The position numbers and the translations under genes were made by a program. A stretch of DNA of 28,890 bases from a virus, in IMG/VR virus record IMGVR_UViG_3300050135_000019, positions 1 to 28,890 of that record; one strand, given 5' to 3'. This document shows positions 1,570 to 19,000 of this stretch, one piece after another (the stretch's first letter is position 1; each line of letters begins with the position of its first letter). The notes below the pieces were generated by a model. That model was not told the origin of the DNA. It worked only from the letters and a program-made list of their open reading frames with translations, and did no database searches.

Positions 1570-1623
1570 CGGGCTATTCTACCTCCGTCTGGTGGGGCCA
1601 GTAGGTCCGACGTCTTGACGCGC

Positions 1624-1783
1624 GTCGTCAGCGTGAAGACTGGCGGGCGGAATCGAACCGCCCGGTGCTGCCCAGTGCCAGCCCATCGCAAGCACACAGA
1701 GTGCGCCGCATCTCCGTCGCCGAAGCGAGCGGAGGGGGAAACGCCGTCCGCTATCCGCTTGATCGCGGTGTCGTCAGCGTGAA
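1624..1783. repeat. 14-bp direct repeat flanking the structured RNA region
   Basis: The sequence gtcgtcagcgtgaa occurs exactly at 1624-1637 and again at 1770-1783, on the same strand, 132 bases apart. The right copy contains the last codons and the stop of the endonuclease VII-like gene; the left copy lies in the non-coding gap. The repeats enclose all the hairpins of the candidate RNA. This could be a target-site duplication or the trace of a small duplication or insertion. A related 11-base match at 25929 shows that the core is not unique. Confidence 0.6.
1639..1733 (-). ncRNA. Structured RNA candidate with tRNA T-arm/acceptor-like minihelix
   Basis: Read on the minus strand, three hairpins follow each other. 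At 1733-1711 there is a stem capped by a UUCG tetraloop. A short GCAC/GTGC stem follows near 1700. At 1676-1639, a 7-bp GC stem with the 7-base loop TTCGATT (the classic tRNA T-loop sequence) is extended, after a bulge, by ACTGG/CCAGT pairing. That last unit looks like the top half of a tRNA: acceptor stem stacked on T-arm. No proper D-arm or anticodon arm with a standard CU-NNN-A loop could be drawn, so it is not a normal tRNA. It may be a decayed tRNA, an attachment-site remnant or a leader structure for the downstream small genes. Confidence 0.35.
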
Positions 1784-2474: not shown

Positions 2475-4124
2475 CTAGTTGGTGTAGGTAACTGCTTTCA
2501 TTCCTTCGCCGTTGATGGCCGCCACACCTTCGGCGTACCTCTTAATGGCGGTCCCATAACTGTACTGTTGTAGAATTACTTGGAGGGTGTTGGCTTTTGT
2601 CTGGGGAATCGTCCGGGGAGTGATCGCCCCCTCGAACACCCACAGCTCCGACAGACACCCGACGATTGCCTGATCGTTCGTGGTAGTTCCCTGATCTGGA
2701 ATGTTCTCGTCGGTGAACACCGGCAGCCCGACGAATTTGTAACCCGTCGCGCCCTCGATGCCCTCGTCGCCGGATGCCGAGCCTGCCGCCGCTGCGTTGA
2801 ACTGGCCAGCGTAGTCGGGCACCACCAGGGAGCGCCCGGTCGTGTCGGCGAACGCCGCCATGTACTCCCAGCGGGTCGGCCGCACGAACAGGTGCGTCGG
2901 GTTCAGGACCGTACCCGCGAGAGTGCGGATGTCAGCCTTCGCTTTCGCGACCTGGCCATAGAACCCGCCGGCCTTTTCTTTTTCTGTGAGCTGGAAGGTG
3001 CCAGCGTTGCCTTTCCAGTTGTTGACTTTGGCTTCGGCCAACGCGATTTCCAGGCAGTACACGTCGAAGTTCAACGCGTAGTTGCGCATCATCTGATCGA
3101 AGATCAGTTTGTCGAACGCGAAGCCTGGGCCAGCGCGGTCGAGTAGCTGCTGTGAAACGACGACCTGCCCGGCGAACGTCTTCAACGCCCCCGAGAGGTA
3201 GCCCGCCGTCGGTGCCAGATCGGCGATCGTGGTGGAGCCCGAAGACTCCGTGGTCGCCGTCACTTCCGCTCCCCCGGTCACATGGGGGATATAGACGTAC
3301 ATGCCATAAGGCGGAAGCTGTTCTTTCTGGCACTGGTCAGCGAACGCCCGGCCGAATTCGCGGTAGGGCGCGTAGTCGCCGACTTTGAACACGGGGGTCA
3401 CGAACGCCGAGCCTTCGCCCGGTGCCGTGGCCGACGCGCCTCCGTCGGTGCCGATCGCGGTTGCCCGCAGCTCGGACTTCTGGTCGATCCCGAGGCGCCC
3501 GCGCTCCTCGAATTCCTTGATCCGCTCCCTCGTACCGTTGGAGTCCTCTCCACGATACGTTTCGCGGATCTGCGGGAGCGCTGCGCGACCGAAGGCCGTG
3601 CCCTGCGCGTGCTCCTTCTCGACCTGGTGCGCCCATTCGTTCAGGCGCTTGTTGGCCCCCTGGTCGTTCGTGCCCTCCCACCGCGTTTTCGCACGAAGTA
3701 CGAGGTCCATGTAGAACGAGTTGGGTGAGCGCAACCCGTCGGGCGCCACACCGTAGATCGGCCGCTCGCCCTGCGCGACCGTCACGTCGGCGATCGAGTC
3801 TATCGACTGAATGCGCTCGCGCGCCTCGGCGATCTTCTCTTTGTCCTTCGCACGCTGCGTCTCTTCCTTGATCCGCCTGCGGAGCGTCTTCATCTCCTTG
3901 CGGACGGTCTTCAGCTCCTCGTCGGTGCTGTCGATCTCCGCACGCAGCTCGTCGCAGCGTGTGGTCTCTTTCTCGTCTGGGTCGCGATCCTCGCCGCTCT
4001 CCTGTCGGAGCCCATCGACGATCTTGCGGAACTCCGCTTCTGCGGTGTCCCGACGGGTAACGAGCTCGTCCCGGCGTGCCTGGACGGGCTCGGCATTCTC
4101 CACGAGCTCTGCAATAGCGCTCAT
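2475..4124 (-). CDS. Major capsid protein, HK97 fold, with N-terminal coiled-coil domain
   Basis: This 549-residue protein forms the capsid shell. Residues 1-110 are a highly charged coiled coil (ELVTRRDTAEAEFRKIVDGL and RKEMKTLRRRIKEETQRAKD), typical of the HK97 delta (scaffolding) domain removed by the prohead protease. The remainder shows HK97-type capsid features: a hydrophobic core segment with ALKTFAGQVVVSQQLLDRAG, then FDQMMRNYALNFDVYCLEIAL, a LFVRPTRWEYMAAFADTTGR segment and GYKFVGLPVFTDENIP. The ATG is preceded by AAAGGA. It follows the protease, with a tRNA nucleotidyltransferase gene inserted between them. At 549 residues it is longer than the roughly 385-430 residues of simple HK97 capsids, partly because of the long N-terminal region. 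It ends with TAG. Confidence 0.92.
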   Translation of the reverse strand: MSAIAELVENAEPVQARRDELVTRRDTAEAEFRKIVDGLRQESGEDRDPDEKETTRCDELRAEIDSTDEELKTVRKEMKTLRRRIKEETQRAKDKEKIAEARERIQSIDSIADVTVAQGERPIYGVAPDGLRSPNSFYMDLVLRAKTRWEGTNDQGANKRLNEWAHQVEKEHAQGTAFGRAALPQIRETYRGEDSNGTRERIKEFEERGRLGIDQKSELRATAIGTDGGASATAPGEGSAFVTPVFKVGDYAPYREFGRAFADQCQKEQLPPYGMYVYIPHVTGGAEVTATTESSGSTTIADLAPTAGYLSGALKTFAGQVVVSQQLLDRAGPGFAFDKLIFDQMMRNYALNFDVYCLEIALAEAKVNNWKGNAGTFQLTEKEKAGGFYGQVAKAKADIRTLAGTVLNPTHLFVRPTRWEYMAAFADTTGRSLVVPDYAGQFNAAAAGSASGDEGIEGATGYKFVGLPVFTDENIPDQGTTTNDQAIVGCLSELWVFEGAITPRTIPQTKANTLQVILQQYSYGTAIKRYAEGVAAINGEGMKAVTYTN

Positions 4125-4205: not shown

Positions 4206-4307
4206 ATCCCGGACGGCGCGCGGTGGGACTAACTGCGTGTTCGACGCTTGGGGCCGCCGCGTCGTCAGGCGGTAAGGGGGTTCGTGTCCGATGCCGCGCG
4301 GGGCGCG

Positions 4308-5720
4308 TCAGAACGTGCGGGCGCGGGACAGCAGCCAGTCGCGCTCGTTCAGGGACGGCTGGGCCATGACCTCGTGTAGCAGCCGACGCTGCGCTTCGCC
4401 CACGGCAGGCCCGTTGAGGCCGATGCCCACAAGATCGCCGCCGGTGATCGCAAGGCCCTTGACAGACCGTGGGATGTGCCGGGCGATAGCTTCCTGCTGG
4501 TGCCCGCTGAGCATGTCGAGGGCCGCGAGCGCCTCGGCTACATCGCCGCCCTTGCCGATCACGTCACAGCGGCGGTGGAGGATCAAGTCGGCGAGCAGCG
4601 CATCGCCGATTTCCGCACGCCAGGTCCGCACCTTGAGCGGCTTGACGCGGTCGTGAAGCGGCAGCATGTGGCGCTCGATCAGCGTGCACACGTCGGCGCG
4701 CAACTCGGCGGGCGCGTTGAGTCGCACAAGGGCCGCGCGGGCGAGGAACCCGCCCCACCACTCGTGCGAGTAGACGGCGGTCGGCGGCGCACCGTGGGCG
4801 GCAAGCTGGTCTGCGGGCAGCGCATAGTAGTGGCGCTGGCCATCCTCGCCGCGCCATGCCATCCAGGGCTTGCCGGCGTCGTGGAACAGGAGCGCCATGC
4901 GCACGCGCAGCGACGCCTGATGCTCGGCTGCCGCCTTGATCGCGTCGAAGGTGTGCTCGTCGCACGCCTTGTCGTGGTAGGCGGAGTCCTGCTCGAAGCC
5001 GACCATCGCCGTAAGCTCGGGCAGCAGCACCGTCAGCACGCCCGTGTCCCGCGCGACGCGCAGCGCCCACGATGGCCGGTCGCCCATCAGCAGCCGTGAC
5101 AGCTCATCGAGTGCCGTGCCCGAGACGCCTTTGAGGGTGAGCGCGGTGACATGCCGTGCGTGCTCGCGCATCTCGCAGTAGGCGCGCTCGCCCAGCTCGA
5201 AGCCAAGGGTGCTGACAAACCGCAGGGCGCGCAGTGTCCGCAGCGGGTCGTCGCGGAATGAGTCAGGATGCGTGGTGCAGATCCGGCCGAACGCGAGATC
5301 GCGCTGCCCGCAGCCGAGTGGGTCGAGGATCTCGCCGGTGCGCACATCGCGGTAGAGCGCGTTGATCGTGAAGTCGCGGCGCTCGGCGTCCTGCGCGAGT
5401 GTGTAGTGCGGCGCGCAGCGGATGTCGAAGGCACGGTGCCCGGCGCCGGTGGGCAGCTCGCGCCGTGGCAGCGCGATCTCCAGCAGCCCGAGTCCCTGGA
5501 CGGCGGCACGCGCGCCGACGACGCGCCCGTCCCGCAGCTTCAGCGCGCCCACCTCTGCGCCAGCGCCCGCGAGCGCCGAGCGTATCTCGTCGATCGACGC
5601 GCCGCGCACCACGTAGTCGGCGTCCTTGTGCGGTCGGTGTAGGAGCTGGTCGCGGACGCTCCCCCCGACTGCGTAGACCTCTGGCAGCCCGAGCTCGGCC
5701 ATGAAGGCGTCGGCGGTCAT
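4308..5720 (-). CDS. cca: CCA-adding tRNA nucleotidyltransferase with HD domain
   Basis: This 470-residue enzyme should add or repair the CCA end of tRNAs from CTP and ATP. All class II motifs are visible: the nucleotide-binding GGSVRD (19-24), the metal-binding DAD (33-35), RRDFTINALY (114-123, nucleotide selection) and DDPLRTLRALRF (157-168). A C-terminal HD phosphohydrolase-type domain follows, with LLFHDAGKP around 278-286. The length is normal for bacterial enzymes with an HD domain and no key residue is missing, so it looks functional. The ATG at 5720 is chosen because the fold starts directly after it (MTADAFMAELGLPEVYAVGG); it lies 19 bases after the protease stop, so it is cotranscribed with head genes. 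It is an unusual passenger in a phage late operon. A host-derived acquisition is likely. Confidence 0.93.
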   Translation of the reverse strand: MTADAFMAELGLPEVYAVGGSVRDQLLHRPHKDADYVVRGASIDEIRSALAGAGAEVGALKLRDGRVVGARAAVQGLGLLEIALPRRELPTGAGHRAFDIRCAPHYTLAQDAERRDFTINALYRDVRTGEILDPLGCGQRDLAFGRICTTHPDSFRDDPLRTLRALRFVSTLGFELGERAYCEMREHARHVTALTLKGVSGTALDELSRLLMGDRPSWALRVARDTGVLTVLLPELTAMVGFEQDSAYHDKACDEHTFDAIKAAAEHQASLRVRMALLFHDAGKPWMAWRGEDGQRHYYALPADQLAAHGAPPTAVYSHEWWGGFLARAALVRLNAPAELRADVCTLIERHMLPLHDRVKPLKVRTWRAEIGDALLADLILHRRCDVIGKGGDVAEALAALDMLSGHQQEAIARHIPRSVKGLAITGGDLVGIGLNGPAVGEAQRRLLHEVMAQPSLNERDWLLSRARTF

Positions 5721-5739
5721 CCGCGGCGCACTGTACCGC

Positions 5740-7593
5740 TCAGGCGGCGATCTTCTGCTGCCGCTTACGTTTGCGTTCGCGCGACTCAAGCTGGAGTCGC
5801 AGCGCCAAGGCTGATGAGCGGATCGGCTCGCCGTCTTCTGAGCGGGTGCCGTCCTGGGCCAAGGCGGTTTCCTCGCTCTCGGACTCGCTGGAGCCGTCGC
5901 CGGCTGCGGCCTCCTGCGGGGGTGCTGTCTCGCCGTCTTGGTCGCCGCCCTCGATCAACTCGGCCGGGTCATAGCCGGCCGCTTCGAGGACGCCGTGGAT
6001 CGACTTCGCGGCCTCGACGAGCTGCCCCTGGTGGGCCTTGGACAGCACCTTGCCGGCGCGCTCCTCGTGGCCCTGGAGGATCGCCAGTATGTCCGCCAGT
6101 TCCTCCGCGGACATGCGTCCGGCGCGCAGGTCAACCTCGAAGCGGCGCAGGCGGGCGCGGGACTCGACGGGCATCTCGAGCGCCATCCGCTTCGCGATCT
6201 CGATCGAGGTTGTCGGTGAGCAGGCGTAGGTGACGCCGCTTACGTCGAGCAGGTCGTCCAGCGCATAGATGTCGCGCGTTTCCATGCCGCCATCGACGCC
6301 CCACTTGTCGCGGCCGACCTTCATGCCGACCGACATTTCGTCGATGTCGCCGCGCTCGAGTGCGATGGCGAAGTCGTTGGCGATCTGCTGGCGAGCGTCC
6401 AGGCGCGCCTCGAAGTTCAGGTCGTCGGCCTCGTCCCACAGCCGCATCGTGTTGTGAGCGCTGCGATCACCCCGGACCCGCGCCATCGGAATACCTTCGT
6501 GGTTGACCAAGAAACGACAGTCCACGCGATCCAGGATCGCTGCGGCGCACCCGCGGTGCATCGTCTCTTCAAACTCGCCGAACGCGTCCCGGACGACATA
6601 GGGCACGCCGTACTTGATCGGCTTGCCGGTGACGATCAGTTCGTTGGTGTCCTTCTGCTCGCGCACCTCGATGCCGGCGTCGGCGAGCGGGCGGAAGCGG
6701 AACTCGTTGCCGAGTGGGACCGCGCGGCGGCGCTCCTTGCGTCGGCGCACCGCGCGCTCGGCCGCCTGCGTATCGGCGGACTTGCCTTCCACCGGCTGGT
6801 AGTGCGTGACCCGCTGGACCTCCTTCGGGGCCCCGAGCTTGACGCTCCCGTCGTCCTGCGCTGTGTAGGGGACCTGGAAGGTCTTCCCGCCCGATTCGTA
6901 GGTCGCTGTGTCGTCGTCGAAATCGCAGAGATAGGCGCTGAGCGAGCCCGCATCGGGCAAGTCGCGGATCGCTTTGGAGATGGCGCTCGCCATCGCCGCG
7001 TGGCTCGGGCCACTGCGGTGCTCGGCGTCCCACTGCTCGGCCGCCTTGCTCTCCATCGGCGAGTACGTCGTGGTTGCCCTCACTGGTTCGGGCTTTCCGA
7101 GCGTCACTTCGCTGCCCTTCACGGTGTAGGAGCAGCGGAACTTCTCGCCGTCGCCAGCTTCGTAGACGCACCAGTCGTCGCCGAAGTCGAGGACGTAGCA
7201 CCACGAGTTCTTCCCGGTCCCGAACTTTGCGGCGACCGCACTGGAGAGCATGTCGCGCATGTCGCTGTAGCTCGTGCCTTCGCGGTGCTCGGCGTCCCAC
7301 ATCGCGGCCTTCTGTTCGTCGGCGAGTGAGCCGTCGGCGTTCCAGTTGTCCGGTATGAGGCTCGACAGTTTGAGCACCTTCGCCCTGGCCATGACGTGCT
7401 TGCGGATTGCGTCGTGGTCGGCGTTGCCGAGGCCGACGGCCTTGATCGCTTTTTCCAGATCGTCCTGGTCGGCGATCGGGTAGCTTTCATCCGCCATCGC
7501 CTCTTTGCCGGCCATCGCCTTGAGTGCTTCGGCGTTGTACTTCGCTCGCCACTCGACCTCGACGGCTGCCAGACGGTCCTCATAGCTGTCCAT
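5740..7593 (-). CDS. Prohead protease (HK97/S78 family) with duplicated N-terminal module
   Basis: The protease matures the capsid by removing the scaffold part of the capsid protein. The catalytic domain is at about 305-470: TNELIVTGKPIKYGVPY, the histidine in FLVNHEG (H365) and the serine in DEMSVGMKV (S421), with a closing LLDVSGVTYACSPTT strand. Before it lies a 300-residue extension. Residues 35-80 (SYPIADQDDLEKAIKAVGLG and following) resemble a small helical domain found in phage proteins. Two copies of an 85-residue module follow (98-184 and 187-271), each with WDAEHR, a DF.DD strand, YE.G...F and a Y.P.E.K end. The C-terminus is acidic and then basic, perhaps a scaffold segment. The ATG has AGGAGG five bases upstream. 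Total length is 617 residues, far above the usual size of about 200. Confidence 0.88.
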   Translation of the reverse strand: MDSYEDRLAAVEVEWRAKYNAEALKAMAGKEAMADESYPIADQDDLEKAIKAVGLGNADHDAIRKHVMARAKVLKLSSLIPDNWNADGSLADEQKAAMWDAEHREGTSYSDMRDMLSSAVAAKFGTGKNSWCYVLDFGDDWCVYEAGDGEKFRCSYTVKGSEVTLGKPEPVRATTTYSPMESKAAEQWDAEHRSGPSHAAMASAISKAIRDLPDAGSLSAYLCDFDDDTATYESGGKTFQVPYTAQDDGSVKLGAPKEVQRVTHYQPVEGKSADTQAAERAVRRRKERRRAVPLGNEFRFRPLADAGIEVREQKDTNELIVTGKPIKYGVPYVVRDAFGEFEETMHRGCAAAILDRVDCRFLVNHEGIPMARVRGDRSAHNTMRLWDEADDLNFEARLDARQQIANDFAIALERGDIDEMSVGMKVGRDKWGVDGGMETRDIYALDDLLDVSGVTYACSPTTSIEIAKRMALEMPVESRARLRRFEVDLRAGRMSAEELADILAILQGHEERAGKVLSKAHQGQLVEAAKSIHGVLEAAGYDPAELIEGGDQDGETAPPQEAAAGDGSSESESEETALAQDGTRSEDGEPIRSSALALRLQLESRERKRKRQQKIAA

Positions 7594-10866: not shown

Positions 10867-11994
10867 CTACGCCGCCAGCGCGCTCGCTGCTTGACGGTTC
10901 AACGCCGATGTCAACTGCGCGAGGATCGTCAGGTCGGCGTGAAGCCGCACGCGCTCGATTCTGCGCACGCGCAGCGGCGTGAGGCCCCATTCGTTCTTGA
11001 GCCTGCCGAACGCCCGCTCGACCGACCCACGCCTGCGGTAGAGCCCCTTCGAGCGCAGCGTCTCGCGGGGGATCAGCGGGTGAAGGCGGTCGGCCTTGAT
11101 CCAGACCGAGGCGGGCTTGCACTCGCCGGTCGGGCAGCGCCACTTGGTTGCCTTGCGCTTGCGGTCGGCACCAGCGAACCGCCACTCGCCGTGCTCACAC
11201 GTCGGGGGCTTGTCCTCGCCGCGCTTGACGGCCGGCGTCTTGCGCAGCGCGACGACCGGCAGGACTTCGCGGTCCATGCAGGCGTCGTGGACGGTGGACG
11301 TGTCGTAGCCCTTGTCCATCGCGCACGTCTCGGGGTTGATCCCGTGCGCCTTGAGCGCGTCGAGCAGCGGAGCGACGGTCAGCCCTTCGTTCTTCTTCGC
11401 CGTCTCGACCGTCCACGCGAGCGGAAGGTCGGTCTTGGAGCAGACCGCCATGTGCAGCCGGTAGCCGTAGAAGCCGCCACCCTTCCGCGTCGAGACGGCG
11501 GAGCGGTGCCCCCAGGAGGCGTCCGGGTCGCTGTACTTCTCGCGTTCCGGCCCGTTCTTGGACAGGTAGCGCTGCCCGTTCGCATACGCGGGCATGTCGG
11601 AGGCGTCGATCGCCACGTCCCACCCGAGCAGCGGGTTCGCCTTCTTGAGAGCCTTCACGACGGAGGCGATGCAATCCTCCAGCAGCGGGCCGTGCTCGCG
11701 CAGCTTGCGGGTGAAGCGGTAGCAGGCGTCGATGGACGGCACGGCACCATTGGGGGCGATCACGGCGGCAAGCGTCGCGTGCTCGCGCACGAGTGCGACA
11801 GTGCGCGTCCAGGTCGGCAAGGCGTACAGCGACTTGGCGAGCGCCATGCCGACCATCGTGCGCATCGAGTAGCCGGGACGGCCCGTCCAGCGGGTCGCTT
11901 GAAGCTGGTCGGTCAAAGCGGAAACCTCCAGCGAGTCGAGGATGGTCGAGAGGTCGTCAGCGACGGATCGCCGTGGTACGGTCTGCGTGTTCAT
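10867..11994 (-). mobile_element. IS5-type DDE transposase gene (insertion sequence; ends not resolved)
   Basis: This 375-residue single-frame transposase has the IS4/IS5 superfamily layout. An N-terminal helical domain has WTGRPGYSMRTMVGMALAKS. The first catalytic Asp is in VAIDASDMPAY, the second in CAMDKGYD, and the Glu lies within YRRRGSVERAFGRLK, an exact Y-(2)-R-(3)-E-(6)-K signature. A Cys/His patch (CEHGEW, WRCPTGEC) lies before the third motif. The frame is intact, so it may be active. I could not find certain terminal inverted repeats: GGATACCTGGAGA near 10845 and GGATCACAGGAGA (complement, near 12010) match only partly. The plus-strand terminator at 12019 fits an ancestral arrangement in which it followed the 276-residue gene and the IS inserted between them. 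Confidence 0.9.
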
Positions 11995-12018
11995 GGGAGG
12001 CCCAATCTCCTGTGATCC

Positions 12019-12056
12019 AGACCCCCGGCTGTTAGCGCAGCGCGGGGGTCTCTTTT
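12019..12056 (+). terminator. Rho-independent terminator (plus strand)
   Basis: AGACCCCCG (12019-12027) pairs with CGGGGGTCT (12043-12051), a 9-bp stem with a 15-base loop, followed by TTTT at 12053-12056. Polarity suits transcription coming from the left, that is from the 276-residue gene before the transposase was inserted. Confidence 0.7.
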
Positions 12057-12074
12057 GGCTTATCTAAGCCAAAA
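12053..12074. repeat. Perfect 10-bp palindrome with AT-rich ends
   Basis: TTTTGGCTTA (12053-12062) and TAAGCCAAAA (12065-12074) are exact reverse complements separated by two bases. It overlaps the T-run of the terminator and stands out as AT-rich in a GC-rich region. It could be a dimeric repressor operator controlling the small gene downstream, or half of an old element end. The gap 12075-12162 otherwise holds only a weak ribosome-binding region. Confidence 0.6.
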
Positions 12075-13071: not shown

Positions 13072-15375
13072 TCACTTGCCCTTCGGTTCGTCGCCGTCGT
13101 CGTCTTCGTCTGGTTCGCTCGCCTTCCCGTCGTCTTCGGGCTTGGCGCCTGTCTGCGAGGGCGCGGTGTTGGAGGCGAGTGGCTGGATCGCTTCGTCTGC
13201 GGCTGGGTCGTCGAGTGGTTCCCAGCCGAGCTTGCGCACGCGCAGGTTGTTGATCGTGCCGACCTGGCTGCCGCGGAGCGCTTCGATCTCCTGTGAGAGG
13301 AACTGCGGGTCCGGGGTGAGCAGCTTGTGCTCCTCAACGCCCGCGAGCTGGTCGCCGGGTAGCAGGGACGAGTGGACCTCCTCAAGCGGGACCGTCAACC
13401 CCGAGAGGGTGAGCGTCACAAAGCGCTGCATCCGCTCCTGTGCGGTGTGGGCGGGCGACGGAGTCTGGCGTTGGAGGGCGTTGGGAATCAGCTCGTCGGT
13501 GCCGAACCATGCCGCCACGACGTTGCGGCTGTACTCAAGCGTGTTGAGGTATTGCGCCTCATCCGGCGAGGTCATCACCTTCTCGGGCTTGATTCCCGAG
13601 TCGAGCACCAGCGGCCTGTGCGCATTCGCAAGGCCGCCGTGCTGGATTATGAACTTGTCCGCGATCCGCTCGACCTCGGCCACCCCGAGCTTCTGGTCGG
13701 TCGTCAACAGGAACGAGGGCGAAGCGCCCTGGCTGAACCATGTTGAGCCGAACTCGTAGGCCGCGAGCGCGAGCGCCGCTGAGATCCCCGCGTACTGGAC
13801 GGTCGAAAGGCCCCGACGTGACTGGGGCATCGACATGAACGGGATGTGCACCACGTCGCCGGGGTCGAGTAGTTTCTTGTCGTTGGCTGCCCCGTAGATG
13901 TACATCGATTCGCCGACGTTGCTCGCCCGCCTGGCCGCGACATCCTGCGGTGAGGCGACCTTGACTTCCATGAACGCCGGGTGCAACACCTCGATTGCCG
14001 AGGCGTACGCTTCCGGCTTTGAGCGCATGAGGATGTACCAGAACGCCTCGCCGAACAGCAGCATGCTCATCAGCGTTTTGCGCCGGCCGTCGTACTGGTA
14101 GACCTTCCCGTTGGCGCCGAGGAACGTGCTCGTCAAGAGGCTCGGCTGCTTCTTGAGGTACCTCCTGTACGGGATGTTTTCGTCCGACAGCTTCTCTTCA
14201 TAGGCGCGAAGGTTCCCCGTGCGCAGGATCGCCGTGGTGATGAGCCGCAGACTGGTGAAGACCACGTCGAGCTGAAGCAACGTGTTGTGAGTCGGCACGA
14301 ACGTCTCGCCCGCCAGGAAAACGTGCGACTCGTGCTCGACGGCGATGCAGCGGGTCGGCACCATCGGCACGGGCCGGATGTCCGTGACGCTCATCAGGTC
14401 GAGACGCCGGCCACGCACGTCATCCGGTCGGTAGAACCTCGCCGACTTGCGGTCGATTCGACACGGGTCAAAGCTCGGCGTCCAGCCCACCGTAAAGCAG
14501 CCGTCGTCGCCGTTGGGCTCGTTCACCGTCGCGCGCTGGCCGAGGCTGCGCGCGAGCCGATGCACCTCGCGCGCCAGGCGCTCGTTGGCGTTGGAGAACA
14601 TTGCCCGCGGCTGGCTGCTGATGCAGCCGTCCGAGTCCATGAGTCCTGCAAGCAGGGCTCTGCGTTGCTCGGCCGACGCGTTGAGGTAGATGTCGGGGAT
14701 GTGCTTGTTGCGCAGCACGCCGAGCCGCTTGAGGCGCGACTCGATCCCGTCCATGTGTTTCGCGTCGTTCGCGAACCGGACATCCCAGCCGCTACCCCAC
14801 TCGCTTACCTTCGCCTCTTCGCTGACGACGCGATAGCCCGCGAGTGCCAGTTGCTCCTGAAGGTGCGCGAGGTCTCCCGCTCCGACCGTGATCGTCGGCG
14901 ATCTGCTCGTCCCGTCACCAAGCCAGTAGCCGAAGACGTAGGGGTCGATCGGGAGGTTGGCTGCGGGGGTCTGCGGAACGGCGTCGCAGCGGACGCGATA
15001 GCGATTGGTCGCACCTCTGGGACCGCCCTTCGGCACTTCGGAGAGCTGCTCGGTCGAGAGCGTCTTCCACGCGCGCCCTTCGGCCCGCACCTGGGCGTTG
15101 CCCGCCGCATCCCAGACGCGCCAGAGGTGATCGCCGGTCGAGGTGATCTTGGCCCCGTCCGCGAAGCTGACCTCGTAGCAGGGCTTCTCGAAGACCTCTG
15201 AGACGTGGCTGACGCGTGTCGGCTGCCCATCTTCGGCGTAGACGTGATCGCCGACCTCGACGGTGCCCATCGTCTTCCAACCGTCCGTCGTCAGGATCGG
15301 CGTGTCGAGGGCAAGTGCGTGCTCAGTGACGAGCACCCCGGCGCGCTGCATATCACCAAGCCCCGGCGGGGGCAC
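13072..15375 (-). CDS. Phage portal protein containing an intein
   Basis: The portal forms the 12-subunit ring at the head vertex through which DNA is packaged. The extein after the intein has the usual portal pattern: LLQLDVVFTSLRLITTAILR, LMSMLLFGEAFWYILMRSK, GDVVHIPFMSMPQSRRGLST, EFGSTWFSQGASPSFLLTT, NVVAAWFGTDELIPNALQRQ and an acidic tail (EPDEDDDGDEP). The GTG at 15375 is only the first start downstream of an in-frame TAG at 15400-15402. The better start is the ATG at 15504, which has a strong SD site and encodes credible N-terminal portal sequence interrupted by the TAG. The 345-residue intein at 14284-15318 divides it between VLVTEH and TLLQLD. It lies downstream of the terminase, as expected. 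Whether functional portal is made depends on the amber codon. Confidence 0.88.
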   Translation of the reverse strand: MPPPGLGDMQRAGVLVTEHALALDTPILTTDGWKTMGTVEVGDHVYAEDGQPTRVSHVSEVFEKPCYEVSFADGAKITSTGDHLWRVWDAAGNAQVRAEGRAWKTLSTEQLSEVPKGGPRGATNRYRVRCDAVPQTPAANLPIDPYVFGYWLGDGTSRSPTITVGAGDLAHLQEQLALAGYRVVSEEAKVSEWGSGWDVRFANDAKHMDGIESRLKRLGVLRNKHIPDIYLNASAEQRRALLAGLMDSDGCISSQPRAMFSNANERLAREVHRLARSLGQRATVNEPNGDDGCFTVGWTPSFDPCRIDRKSARFYRPDDVRGRRLDLMSVTDIRPVPMVPTRCIAVEHESHVFLAGETFVPTHNTLLQLDVVFTSLRLITTAILRTGNLRAYEEKLSDENIPYRRYLKKQPSLLTSTFLGANGKVYQYDGRRKTLMSMLLFGEAFWYILMRSKPEAYASAIEVLHPAFMEVKVASPQDVAARRASNVGESMYIYGAANDKKLLDPGDVVHIPFMSMPQSRRGLSTVQYAGISAALALAAYEFGSTWFSQGASPSFLLTTDQKLGVAEVERIADKFIIQHGGLANAHRPLVLDSGIKPEKVMTSPDEAQYLNTLEYSRNVVAAWFGTDELIPNALQRQTPSPAHTAQERMQRFVTLTLSGLTVPLEEVHSSLLPGDQLAGVEEHKLLTPDPQFLSQEIEALRGSQVGTINNLRVRKLGWEPLDDPAADEAIQPLASNTAPSQTGAKPEDDGKASEPDEDDDGDEPKGK
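14284..15318 (-). other. Class 3-type intein with LAGLIDADG homing endonuclease
   Basis: This 345-residue insert begins ALALDTPILTTDGWKTM and ends VPTHN, followed by Thr. The N-terminal residue is Ala rather than Cys or Ser, and the three residues that define class 3 inteins are present: Trp in block B (TSTGDHLW), Cys in block F (TRCIAVEHESH) and Thr in block G (VPTHN). In that class the block F Cys starts splicing in place of residue 1. Between the splicing blocks are two LAGLIDADG motifs, GYWLGDGTS (about residues 130-138) and LLAGLMDSDG (about 222-231), each with its acidic residue, so the homing endonuclease looks intact. No frameshift is seen. It is inserted in a conserved helix of the portal, a typical choice of a hard-to-delete site. 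Confidence 0.92.
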
Positions 15376-16516: not shown

Positions 16517-16988
16517 CGCGCAGGGACAGACACGGGGCGTCGAGCCGATCATGGAGGTGCACGACGAGGCAGCCATCTGGAAAGATCCTCGGTTCGCCGA
16601 GCGCGAACGGAAGCTCGCCGAAGTCCAGAGGCGCTACGCCTGGTTCGGCGAGGCACTGACCCGCGCTCACGCGGACGGCAAGATCAAGTCCGAGGCCGTG
16701 CGCTTCTTCATCACCCAGGACCAGCCGTTCTTGTACGCCGAGAGTGGCGAGCTGGTGCTGGACCGCAACGACGAGCCGATAGTCGACCGAGACGCCGAGC
16801 CCTTCTACGTTGGCCACGCGCAGGCGTACAGCTACGTTGGCGCGCCCCCCCGGACGCACGTCATCGCCGCGCAAATGCAGGTGTCGCTGCTGCTGCTCGA
16901 CCATGCGGCCACGGGGACGGTCATCGATGTCCTCTGCGCCGACCTCTCGGCATTGCACGCGCTCGAGCTGGCCCGAGCTACCGTCTGA
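16509..16988 (+). CDS. Hypothetical protein
   Basis: I do not recognise this 159-residue protein. It has an acidic, helical first third (EAAIWKDPRFAERERKLAEV, then QRRYAWFGEALTRAHADGKI), a central segment with FFITQDQPFLYAESGELVLD, and a more hydrophobic end containing TGTVIDVLCADLSALHALEL. It overlaps the repaired end of the previous plus-strand gene by eight bases, so the two are a coupled pair. Its 3' end overlaps the end of the large terminase gene by 11 bases, tail to tail. The pair lies on the opposite strand to the late operon, so it may be expressed at another time, and antisense transcription is expected. Confidence 0.55.
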   Translation: MPDAQGQTRGVEPIMEVHDEAAIWKDPRFAERERKLAEVQRRYAWFGEALTRAHADGKIKSEAVRFFITQDQPFLYAESGELVLDRNDEPIVDRDAEPFYVGHAQAYSYVGAPPRTHVIAAQMQVSLLLLDHAATGTVIDVLCADLSALHALELARATV

Positions 16989-18669
16989 ACCCGCGCGGCA
17001 TGTCCTCAAGCGCGATGAAGTTGGACGGACTGGCAGGCTTCTCGGGCTGCTGGTTCTGCTCTTGAGCCGCAGCCTCTTTCGCCGCGATGATCTCGTTCAG
17101 GTCCCACACCTGCGGTGCGCTCTGGGTCCTCGCGCCCCACAATGCCAGCGTGCAGGACACGAGCGGGGTGATGAGCGCACCTGATTTGCGCGACCACTTC
17201 CAGGCATCGAGCAGCGGCTTGGTCGTGGCACCAGTGATCGCGGCGTCTAGCTCGGGCTGTGGAGGCATGTAGCGCAGGCGCTTGTCCTTGACGGCCTGAA
17301 GAAAGCCGCCGCATGCGTCCTTGTAGTCGCTGGCGGTTGTCGGGACGGCCTGGATGCCGGCGTCTGAGAGTTCTTTGAGCAGGTTCGCCAGGTCGATCCG
17401 CGGGTCCACGACCAGGCGCGCTTCGGGGTAGCGCTCCAGCCAGCCTTTCGAGGATTTGACCAGCCAGCCGATTGCCTTGGCATGCTCGACTACCCCGACG
17501 TGGTAGAGGCCGTCGCTGCGCATCCCGGCGGCGCTGAGTGTCGCCCATGCTTGGCCAGGATCCACGTCGAACGCGAAGCAGTGCGCGCTCTCTATCCGAC
17601 TGGATGGCTCGGCGAGCGCCGCCCACATCTCGTCGCTGATCGGTCCGCCCGCGCTGCCCGTGATGTCGGGGTACTTGCCGATCCCCAGCCGCTCGACGGC
17701 GAACTGCCGATCGCCCATCGCGCGTCGCTCCTGTGCGACGTACTCCACCGAGATCCTGATGCCGAGCCCCGGATTGGCGAGCGCCCACTGCTGCGGATCG
17801 TCCAGCAGCGCCGCTGGGACGGTCCCCGGATCGTCCTTGCGCGGATCGTCGTTGGCTTTGGCGCTGTGCTCGAAATAGGCGAGCGAAGCATCGCCGCCGG
17901 CGAGAGCGCGCGCGCGGCGCTTGGCGAGCACCACCCCGTCGTGTGCCGGGTCCTCCTCGTCCGGCGCTGAGCCGGCCAGCCATATCTGGGGGTTCGGGCG
18001 GGCCGAGAGCGTCGGCACGGTCGCGCCGAGGAACACCTCGGGCAGGATCATCGCCTCATCGAGATACAGGCAGTCGGCCGAGAACCCGCGGCCACCGCCG
18101 CCGGTGCGCGCCTTGAAGCGGATGCGCCGCCCGTCGCGAAGCTCGATGCCCTCCTGTCCGTGGCTGCGCGTGATCCCGACCAGCTTCGAGCCGCGGTGCT
18201 TGACTTCCCGCCGCAGGTCATCGCAGTTTTCGACGACGAACGCGAGCCGGCGGAAGATCTCCATCGCCGTGTCGAACAGGTGGGCTGAATAGATCTGGAG
18301 CTGCTCCTCGACGACGAACAGGCCACCGAGCATGCGCATGACCAACTTCTCAGACTTTCCGCTCTGGCGTGAGCAGATGTCGCAGCACTCGAACGCCGCC
18401 CACGGGTGCAGCAGCGGCTCGCCGGGATGGATCGGGCACGGCACCGGCTCGGCCGCGCGGTGCGTGCACTTCGGGCACTTCCAGTCGGGCGACTCACCCA
18501 TCTCGTGGCGCAGCTCGGTCTGCTGCCACTCGTCGGGCTCGATCCCCGCCATGCGGGCGACCGCTATCGTTTCATCGCCCGATGTCGATGTGTAGGCCGG
18601 GAAGGAGCTAATCCGCGCCTGCTGCGCTCCCCTCAGCGAGTCGATCGGCACGGCCAGAGCGGATGGCAT
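16978..18669 (-). CDS. terL: Terminase large subunit with inserted zinc ribbon
   Basis: TerL is the ATP-driven motor and nuclease that packages and cuts phage DNA. The Walker A-like motif is SRQSGKS (about 100-106) within WAAFECCDICSRQSGKS, and the Walker B is LYLDEAM (D204, E205), followed by the coupling motif IWLAGSAPD. The C-terminal nuclease part begins at HCFAFDVDPGQAWATLSAAG, with later acidic sites in LVVDPRIDL. Just before the Walker A there is an unusual insert, WKCPKC...CPIHPGEP (C65, C68, C78, H81), that could bind zinc. The ATG at 18669 lies within the 3' end of the small-terminase gene; other starts up to 18762 lack sense. At 563 residues the length is usual. It is followed by two plus-strand genes and then the portal. 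Confidence 0.92.
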   Translation of the reverse strand: MPSALAVPIDSLRGAQQARISSFPAYTSTSGDETIAVARMAGIEPDEWQQTELRHEMGESPDWKCPKCTHRAAEPVPCPIHPGEPLLHPWAAFECCDICSRQSGKSEKLVMRMLGGLFVVEEQLQIYSAHLFDTAMEIFRRLAFVVENCDDLRREVKHRGSKLVGITRSHGQEGIELRDGRRIRFKARTGGGGRGFSADCLYLDEAMILPEVFLGATVPTLSARPNPQIWLAGSAPDEEDPAHDGVVLAKRRARALAGGDASLAYFEHSAKANDDPRKDDPGTVPAALLDDPQQWALANPGLGIRISVEYVAQERRAMGDRQFAVERLGIGKYPDITGSAGGPISDEMWAALAEPSSRIESAHCFAFDVDPGQAWATLSAAGMRSDGLYHVGVVEHAKAIGWLVKSSKGWLERYPEARLVVDPRIDLANLLKELSDAGIQAVPTTASDYKDACGGFLQAVKDKRLRYMPPQPELDAAITGATTKPLLDAWKWSRKSGALITPLVSCTLALWGARTQSAPQVWDLNEIIAAKEAAAQEQNQQPEKPASPSNFIALEDMPRGFRR

Positions 18670-19000
18670 GCAGTTGCCCCTTCTTGTCGTCGGGCGGGCA
18701 CATCTCCCGGAGCTTGCCCATCGCCTGCAACAGCGTCTTGCCGCACTCGCTCGGCGAGCCATCGCCGCTGTCCAGACGCGAGGCCATCGCCAGTGCTGTC
18801 GCGGCCTCGGCCGACTCGGCGACCTCGGGCGGCATGTGCGCCAGGTCGCGCTCGACCGCAGCGACTGCGAGCCCTGCCTGCTTCGGCGCGCTCGCGCGCT
18901 TCGCTTTCGCTGGCGGTTTGCGGCGCGCGGGCTTTGGCTTCGGGGGCGGTTTGGCTTTGCGCTTCGTCGCCGGTTTCGCTGCGGGTTTGCGCGGGATCAT
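18608..19000 (-). CDS. Terminase small subunit-like protein
   Basis: This 130-residue protein starts at the ATG of an ATGA overlap. The first 45 residues are a Lys/Pro/Ala-rich basic tail (RKPAAKPATKRKAKPPPKPK), suited to DNA binding. The remainder is helical: GLAVAAVERDLAHMPPEVAE, SAEAATALAMASRLDSGDG and a core with LLQAMGKLREMCPP. Actinophage TerS proteins have this build and position, immediately before TerL, and the gene overlaps terL by 62 bases. TerS recognises the packaging site and hands the DNA to TerL. The assignment rests on position and general pattern, not on a firm motif. Confidence 0.7.
   Translation of the reverse strand: MIPRKPAAKPATKRKAKPPPKPKPARRKPPAKAKRASAPKQAGLAVAAVERDLAHMPPEVAESAEAATALAMASRLDSGDGSPSECGKTLLQAMGKLREMCPPDDKKGQLHAIRSGRADRLAEGSAAGAD

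Follow-up and report, generated by a model that had tools for sequence, protein, structure and literature searches.

The stretch of DNA analysed here, referred to as the window, comes from a soil phage and comprises 28,890 bases; its IMG/VR record is classed as linear and therefore may be a fragment. Its head module is read in one direction in the order terminase, portal, protease, CCA enzyme and capsid (Table 1). An earlier note, made from the letters alone, had placed a CCA-adding enzyme between the prohead protease and the capsid gene, 19 bases after the protease stop, and this position was confirmed, the protease ending at 5740. No clear Shine-Dalgarno sequence was seen in the 19-base gap before the CCA start, so translation of the enzyme may be coupled to that of the protease.

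Several other features of the window bear on its host and its history. Judged by terminase and capsid, the nearest named phages have their hosts among the Actinobacteria, with 27-35% identity in the listed matches, and the host search found no prophage with a window-type capsid among the genome contigs. A transposase element inserted between head genes shares 81% DNA identity with an element in genome G519, which belongs to the same actinobacterial class as the cellular sister enzymes described below; this match is a weak hint that the phage host may belong to that class. The intein of the portal gene is absent from the portal genes of relatives L003-L006 and L329. Downstream of the capsid gene lies an endonuclease VII gene, after which the window ends, and a second capsid-like paralogue was not seen there. 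A short block 3' of the capsid gene is conserved in 6/6 capsid relatives while the surrounding genes vary, and in L003 a tRNA-Met predicted by ARAGORN overlaps it.

Table 1. Coordinates of features in the window and in related phage records (positions without a record name refer to the window)
Feature	Position	Strand	Remarks
CCA-type tRNA nucleotidyltransferase gene	4308..5720	-	470 aa; ATG at 5720; stop included
Prohead protease gene (Peptidase_S78/HK97 type)	5740..7593	-	ATG at 7593 inferred from relative L006
Protease-CCA gap	5721..5739	-	19 bases, protease stop to CCA start
Pre-capsid intergenic segment	4125..4280	-	between cassette and capsid; common to L002 and L006
Major capsid protein gene	2475..4124	-	downstream; starts 183 bases past CCA stop
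Portal gene	13072..15375	-	same module; in-frame intein carrying LAGLIDADG domain
Terminase large subunit gene	16978..18702	-	start provisional; closest named phages infect Actinobacteria
35-bp relic	4289..4323	-	exact in L006:7974-8008
IS1182/IS5-like transposase	10867-11994		
Conserved block 3' of capsid	1582-1683		30-100 bp
Protease-capsid junction of L003			about 120 bp
Protease-capsid junction of L005			about 220 bp
Protease-capsid junction of L002			about 640 bp
Protease-capsid junction of L004			antisense HNH gene
Protease-capsid junctions of L006 and L007			other ORFs
Segment difference of two records	L329:13735-14318 vs L002:1-250		
Split of capsid gene in L007	L007:3169-3926		
Two inserts in capsid gene of L006	L006:10823-11085, 11806-12067		
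Capsid-like paralogue	L002:2625-3818, L003:11416-12597, L004:11824-13089, L005:12445-13632, L006:13014-14189, L007:5572-6768		

The prediction that the window gene encodes a complete member of the class II tRNA nucleotidyltransferase/poly(A) polymerase head family was confirmed by profile searches and by structural modelling. The open reading frame is uninterrupted by stops, and its product matched the head domain PF01743 with 65.4 bits (cut-off 23), the RNA-binding domain PF12627 with 27.5 bits (cut-off 22) and PHROG 2244, 'tRNA nucleotidyltransferase', with an E value of 2.4e-52. The AlphaFold2 model, for which 25 sequences served as input, reached a pLDDT of 93.1 and a pTM of 0.90. In a Foldseek search of the PDB, all 46 significant matches were structures of CCA-adding enzymes, A-adding enzymes or poly(A) polymerases, with E values down to 2e-16 and TM scores reaching 0.70 when normalised to the length of the query and 0.78 when normalised to that of the target. 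Full-length homology at about 50% identity to relatives, together with the confident fold, rules out a chance open reading frame, and the full-length class II enzyme with an HD domain described in the earlier note was thereby borne out. A nucleotidyltransferase toxin of the MenT type was also considered and was rejected, since the complete class II architecture and the HD domain were found. The protein stands alone with its 470 aa and carries no fused effector domains, so it does not qualify as a polyvalent protein. Its scores stayed below the NCBIfam equivalog cut-offs, with 150 bits against 451 for the best model (NF008137) and 128 against 439 for TIGR02692, and below that of the PcnB model (77 bits against 306); the sister cellular enzymes likewise fall below the CCA equivalog cut-offs. 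The exact nucleotide specificity assigned to the enzyme is therefore putative.

In the alignment, the catalytic residues of the window enzyme are found as G19, G20 and R23 of the GG..RD motif, the metal-binding DxD pair D33 and D35, and R114, R115 and D116 of RRD. The nucleotide-template motif [ED]DxxR is present as D157, D158 and R161, that is, as DDxxR with an exchange of E for D. The same exchange (DDPLR) is common to all four nearest relatives, L097-L100, which indicates a trait of the clade rather than decay. The metal-binding residues of the HD domain, H256, H280-D281, H319, H351 and D386, are invariant across 25 aligned sequences, in keeping with CCA enzymes of the E. coli type, which have an HD phosphohydrolase domain. 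The earlier claim that all catalytic motifs are present thus holds for GG..RD, DxD, RRD and [ED]DxxR but not for the canonical motif E (ER..E), which is missing: the window enzyme reads SGTALDEL, with E206 kept. The '..SGT..E' form occurs in 9/9 members of the phage clade (the window enzyme and its eight nearest phage relatives), and the 13 sister cellular enzymes retain 'ER'. Motif E is the least conserved of the motifs and is not catalytic, and for this reason it was not counted as defining membership. Two other multidomain phage proteins, L087 and L109, have a CCA-type head and a degenerate HD domain.

A viral scan with the plain sequence of the window enzyme found no relative. The nearest ones, L097-L100, also escaped an initial scan based on motifs and were recovered by a scan with a subfamily alignment. 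These four are standalone CCA enzymes, 49-51% identical to the window enzyme, and around their genes the phage contigs carry 14, 24, 30 and 27 tRNA genes, respectively. These phages carry near-complete tRNA sets, in which only 8 of the 95 tRNAs have an encoded CCA end (in some of them the CCA may be acceptor-stem sequence) and 87 (about 92%) do not. Ordinary maturation of tRNAs lacking CCA is well supported for the enzymes of L097-L100 and is, among possible roles, the one with the best support. In the next nearest relatives, L017, L018, L019 and L102, the CCA enzyme is a domain of a large multidomain protein, the complete ones having about 1,070 to 3,900 aa. Three of the four (L018/L103, L019 and L102) are encoded downstream of a portal-like gene, a call based on PHROG 10963 for L103 and on likeness of sequence for the others. 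The L017 protein contains peptidoglycan-binding domains, and because its matches to LPD1 and to an acetyltransferase are sub-threshold, the term 'polyvalent' describes only its make-up and not an established membership.

In a careful tree, the window enzyme and L097-L100 were grouped with a support of 100/100, this group and the multidomain L017, L018, L019 and L102 with 100/98, and all these phage members and 13 cellular genes with 100/100; a quick tree of 83 rows agrees with it. A grouping of the window enzyme with the sister cellular genes alone was rejected by the AU test. The gene therefore falls in a phage clade in the tree with bacterial CCA enzymes that the earlier note had suggested building; the branch leading from its relatives to the window enzyme is long (0.68 changes per site). 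Sampling of one class around a contig titled 'Actinobacteria bacterium' (L176) covered 149 genomes, and the sister cellular enzyme was present in 13 of them (loci L276-L288). Each of the 13 shows exactly one PF01743 gene, the completeness of these genomes not being stated, and the lack of a second such gene suggests that the sister-type enzyme does the whole CCA addition. Two nucleotidyltransferase loci were seen in many other genomes of the class, their products frequently about 400-550 and 850-950 aa long; in G031 the longer one can be aligned from end to end with the model of the A-adding enzyme, with a score below the cut-off. The genomes L176 and L326 both have a RidA-like gene, as read from translations, beside the sister gene, which therefore looks chromosomal.

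Seven records (L002-L007 and L329), 77-91% identical in portal or capsid and with readable portal and capsid context, were used as close relatives of the window phage; L333 was left out, its portal matching but its gene order being different. None of the seven carries the CCA gene, no PF01743 being found in L002-L007 and no match in L329, and the gene is therefore dispensable. Conserved synteny of the CCA gene with protease and capsid was sought among these relatives and not found, so a shared position, which the earlier note had proposed to check, was not supported. The L329 record stops before the capsid, and in the six relatives with the whole junction visible the contents between protease and capsid differ (Table 1). 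This comparison shows the gene to be an exchangeable cargo cassette at a variable site. A trace of the gene was found in L006, where a 35-bp segment exactly matches the last 13 bases of the CCA coding sequence, its stop codon and the 19 bases downstream, in a record without the remainder of the gene. The 27-bp core of this relic occurred in no other viral contig, in a scan that may omit the window's own record. The most straightforward interpretation is that the CCA gene was once present at the protease-capsid site in the ancestry of L006 and was later lost. L329 and L002, which come from the same sample, differ by a segment of about 420 bp beginning exactly at the protease stop, which again points to exchange of cassettes there.

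Apart from the junction, the capsid region of the relatives showed features of its own. In L007 the capsid gene is split, with a group I intron-like match of 37.4 bits (below the gathering threshold of 50), and in L006 it is split by two inserts of about 260 bp without any Rfam match. A second capsid-like paralogue (30-34% identity) lies downstream of the major capsid gene in 6/6 relatives.

No tRNA genes were found in the 28.9-kb window, and screening of the window against Rfam for overlooked tRNAs and further RNA genes returned nothing; hence the substrate should be either host tRNA or a phage tRNA outside our view. Our preferred reading, which we consider probable on the basis of sequence comparison and the structural model, is that of a class II CCA-adding enzyme of a phage lineage, encoded in a replaceable cassette of an actinobacteriophage and restoring the tRNA 3' CCA, mainly that of the host. 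A catalytically intact enzyme, inserted as a replaceable cassette between the prohead protease and capsid genes, would be produced together with the head proteins, would most likely add or restore the 3' CCA of mainly host tRNAs in the infected cell, and translation would thereby be sustained in the late phase. For this reading the gene itself, its motifs, its fold, its place in the tree and its cassette character are demonstrated, and from them we infer catalytic activity, addition of the full CCA rather than of CC or A, the timing of expression, and tRNA repair as the selected function. The low equivalog scores, the altered motif E, the scarcity of tRNA genes in the window and in two larger relatives, the lack of a clear ribosome-binding site and the absence from all near relatives weigh against it. 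The HD domain of E. coli Cca heals cyclic phosphate ends, and such healing would suit a repair role. Our results support the proposal of the earlier note that a phage, and a genuine one, encodes an intact enzyme which could be transcribed together with its head genes.

The enzyme might instead mature the phage's own tRNAs, encoded outside this contig, which we regard as unlikely although not implausible. The four nearest relatives sit in tRNA arrays whose tRNAs mostly lack CCA, and the linear contig may be a fragment; however, the 28.9 kb contain no tRNA, and two relatives' records of 56.7 and 71.5 kb (capsids 84-86% identical) have one predicted tRNA each and no CCA gene. Maturation of phage tRNAs that lack CCA, one of the roles raised earlier, thus fits L097-L100 but not what is seen of the window phage. 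Counter-defence, in which the enzyme would restore CCA tails after tRNA-targeting immunity, for instance of the Cas12a3 type, has cleaved or blocked them, is plausible but likewise a minor possibility. Cas12a3 immunity cleaves the CCA tails of tRNAs to stop phages (PMC12851939), and since tRNA 3' tails are a demonstrated target of immunity, counter-defence is a natural role to consider for a phage enzyme able to rebuild such tails. Repair of tRNA ends has been proposed for the CCA enzymes of jumbo phages (PMC7824862), and in the window the HD domain is intact and the gene behaves as accessory cargo. Nevertheless, the same type of enzyme probably serves ordinary tRNA maturation in the relatives.

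That the gene is a mere passenger, caught in a hot spot without benefit to the phage, seems doubtful to us. While its absence from all near relatives, the relic in L006 and the lack of a clear ribosome-binding site would agree with such an origin, the main catalytic residues have stayed intact along a long branch, which implies past purifying selection, and the GC3 of the gene, 0.88, differs little from the 0.80-0.87 of the genes around it. It is improbable that the enzyme is packaged in the head, injected with the DNA and active at the start of infection. The gene does sit between protease and capsid, the next group of its relatives consists of domains in giant proteins, whose genes in three cases out of four follow a portal gene, and such polyvalent proteins are thought to be delivered by the virion (PMC5512222), but the window protein stands alone and shows no targeting extension, and its standalone relatives occupy tRNA regions and not head operons. 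A broader scenario is quite improbable, namely that an enzyme of this lineage, in some phages a domain of giant head-module proteins and in the window a head-operon gene, is packaged, enters the cell and re-tails tRNAs after CCA-tail-cleaving immunity, and that the lineage exchanged, by giving or receiving, the CCA gene of the single-enzyme minority in one actinobacterial class. Finally, a join of host DNA to phage DNA by assembly, which the earlier note had coupled with absence from related phages as the finding that would speak against a phage function, is extremely improbable: relatives do lack the gene, but an exact 35-bp match to its 3' end lies at the same junction in L006, it groups with phage and not cellular genes, and both its flanks are phage head genes, so that phage ownership stands.

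The earlier note's view of such enzymes as normally host-chromosomal was not supported, since a tblastn search found relatives in 418 of the 50,697 phage records covered, often under a matching annotation, and CCA enzymes have already been reported in huge and jumbo phages (PMC7162821, PMC7824862). Human faecal 'Bacteriophage sp.' records with full-length matches are unverified and unannotated metagenome scaffolds, of which several fall with bacterial genes in the quick tree, and they were therefore excluded as phage evidence. Phage CCA enzymes as such are already known, and the window gene adds one more, in a lineage with tRNA-array phages. In the literature searched, with subscription journals outside its scope, we met neither a CCA cassette in a head operon nor the clade of tRNA-array and multidomain phages or its cellular sister clade; PMC5512222 contains no word beginning with 'CCA' and so no earlier report of a CCA domain in polyvalent proteins. 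The present case shows a swappable CCA enzyme in a tRNA-less phage fragment, closely related both to enzymes of tRNA-array phages and to parts of giant proteins from the head module. Together these form a defined group in which maturation can be tested against repair. With a cellular single-enzyme clade as its sister, in a class with two nucleotidyltransferases in many genomes, the group also makes exchange of tRNA-machinery genes between phage and host testable.

Compared with known systems, the PHROG 2244 enzymes of vequintaviruses, jumbo phages and others belong to the same family, are phage-encoded and have both the head and the HD domain. The listed members from named phages are at most about 37% identical to the window enzyme over the match, and in the three examined, all from large phages, the gene is surrounded by small genes or by genes of nucleotide metabolism and does not form a head-operon cassette. 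The solved cellular CCA enzymes of Bacillus stearothermophilus (1miv), Thermotoga maritima (3h38) and human mitochondria (4x4w) are alike in fold and catalytic motifs, but they are only about 16-22% identical in structural alignment, and the window enzyme differs in its altered motif E and its phage lineage. L017, L018, L019 and L102 share the motif E variant with the window enzyme and differ from it as fused multidomain proteins. L097-L100 agree with it in their standalone form, the DDPLR and SGT variants and the nearest place in the tree, whereas 14-30 tRNA genes surround them and the head genes of their phages differ from those of the tRNA-less window.
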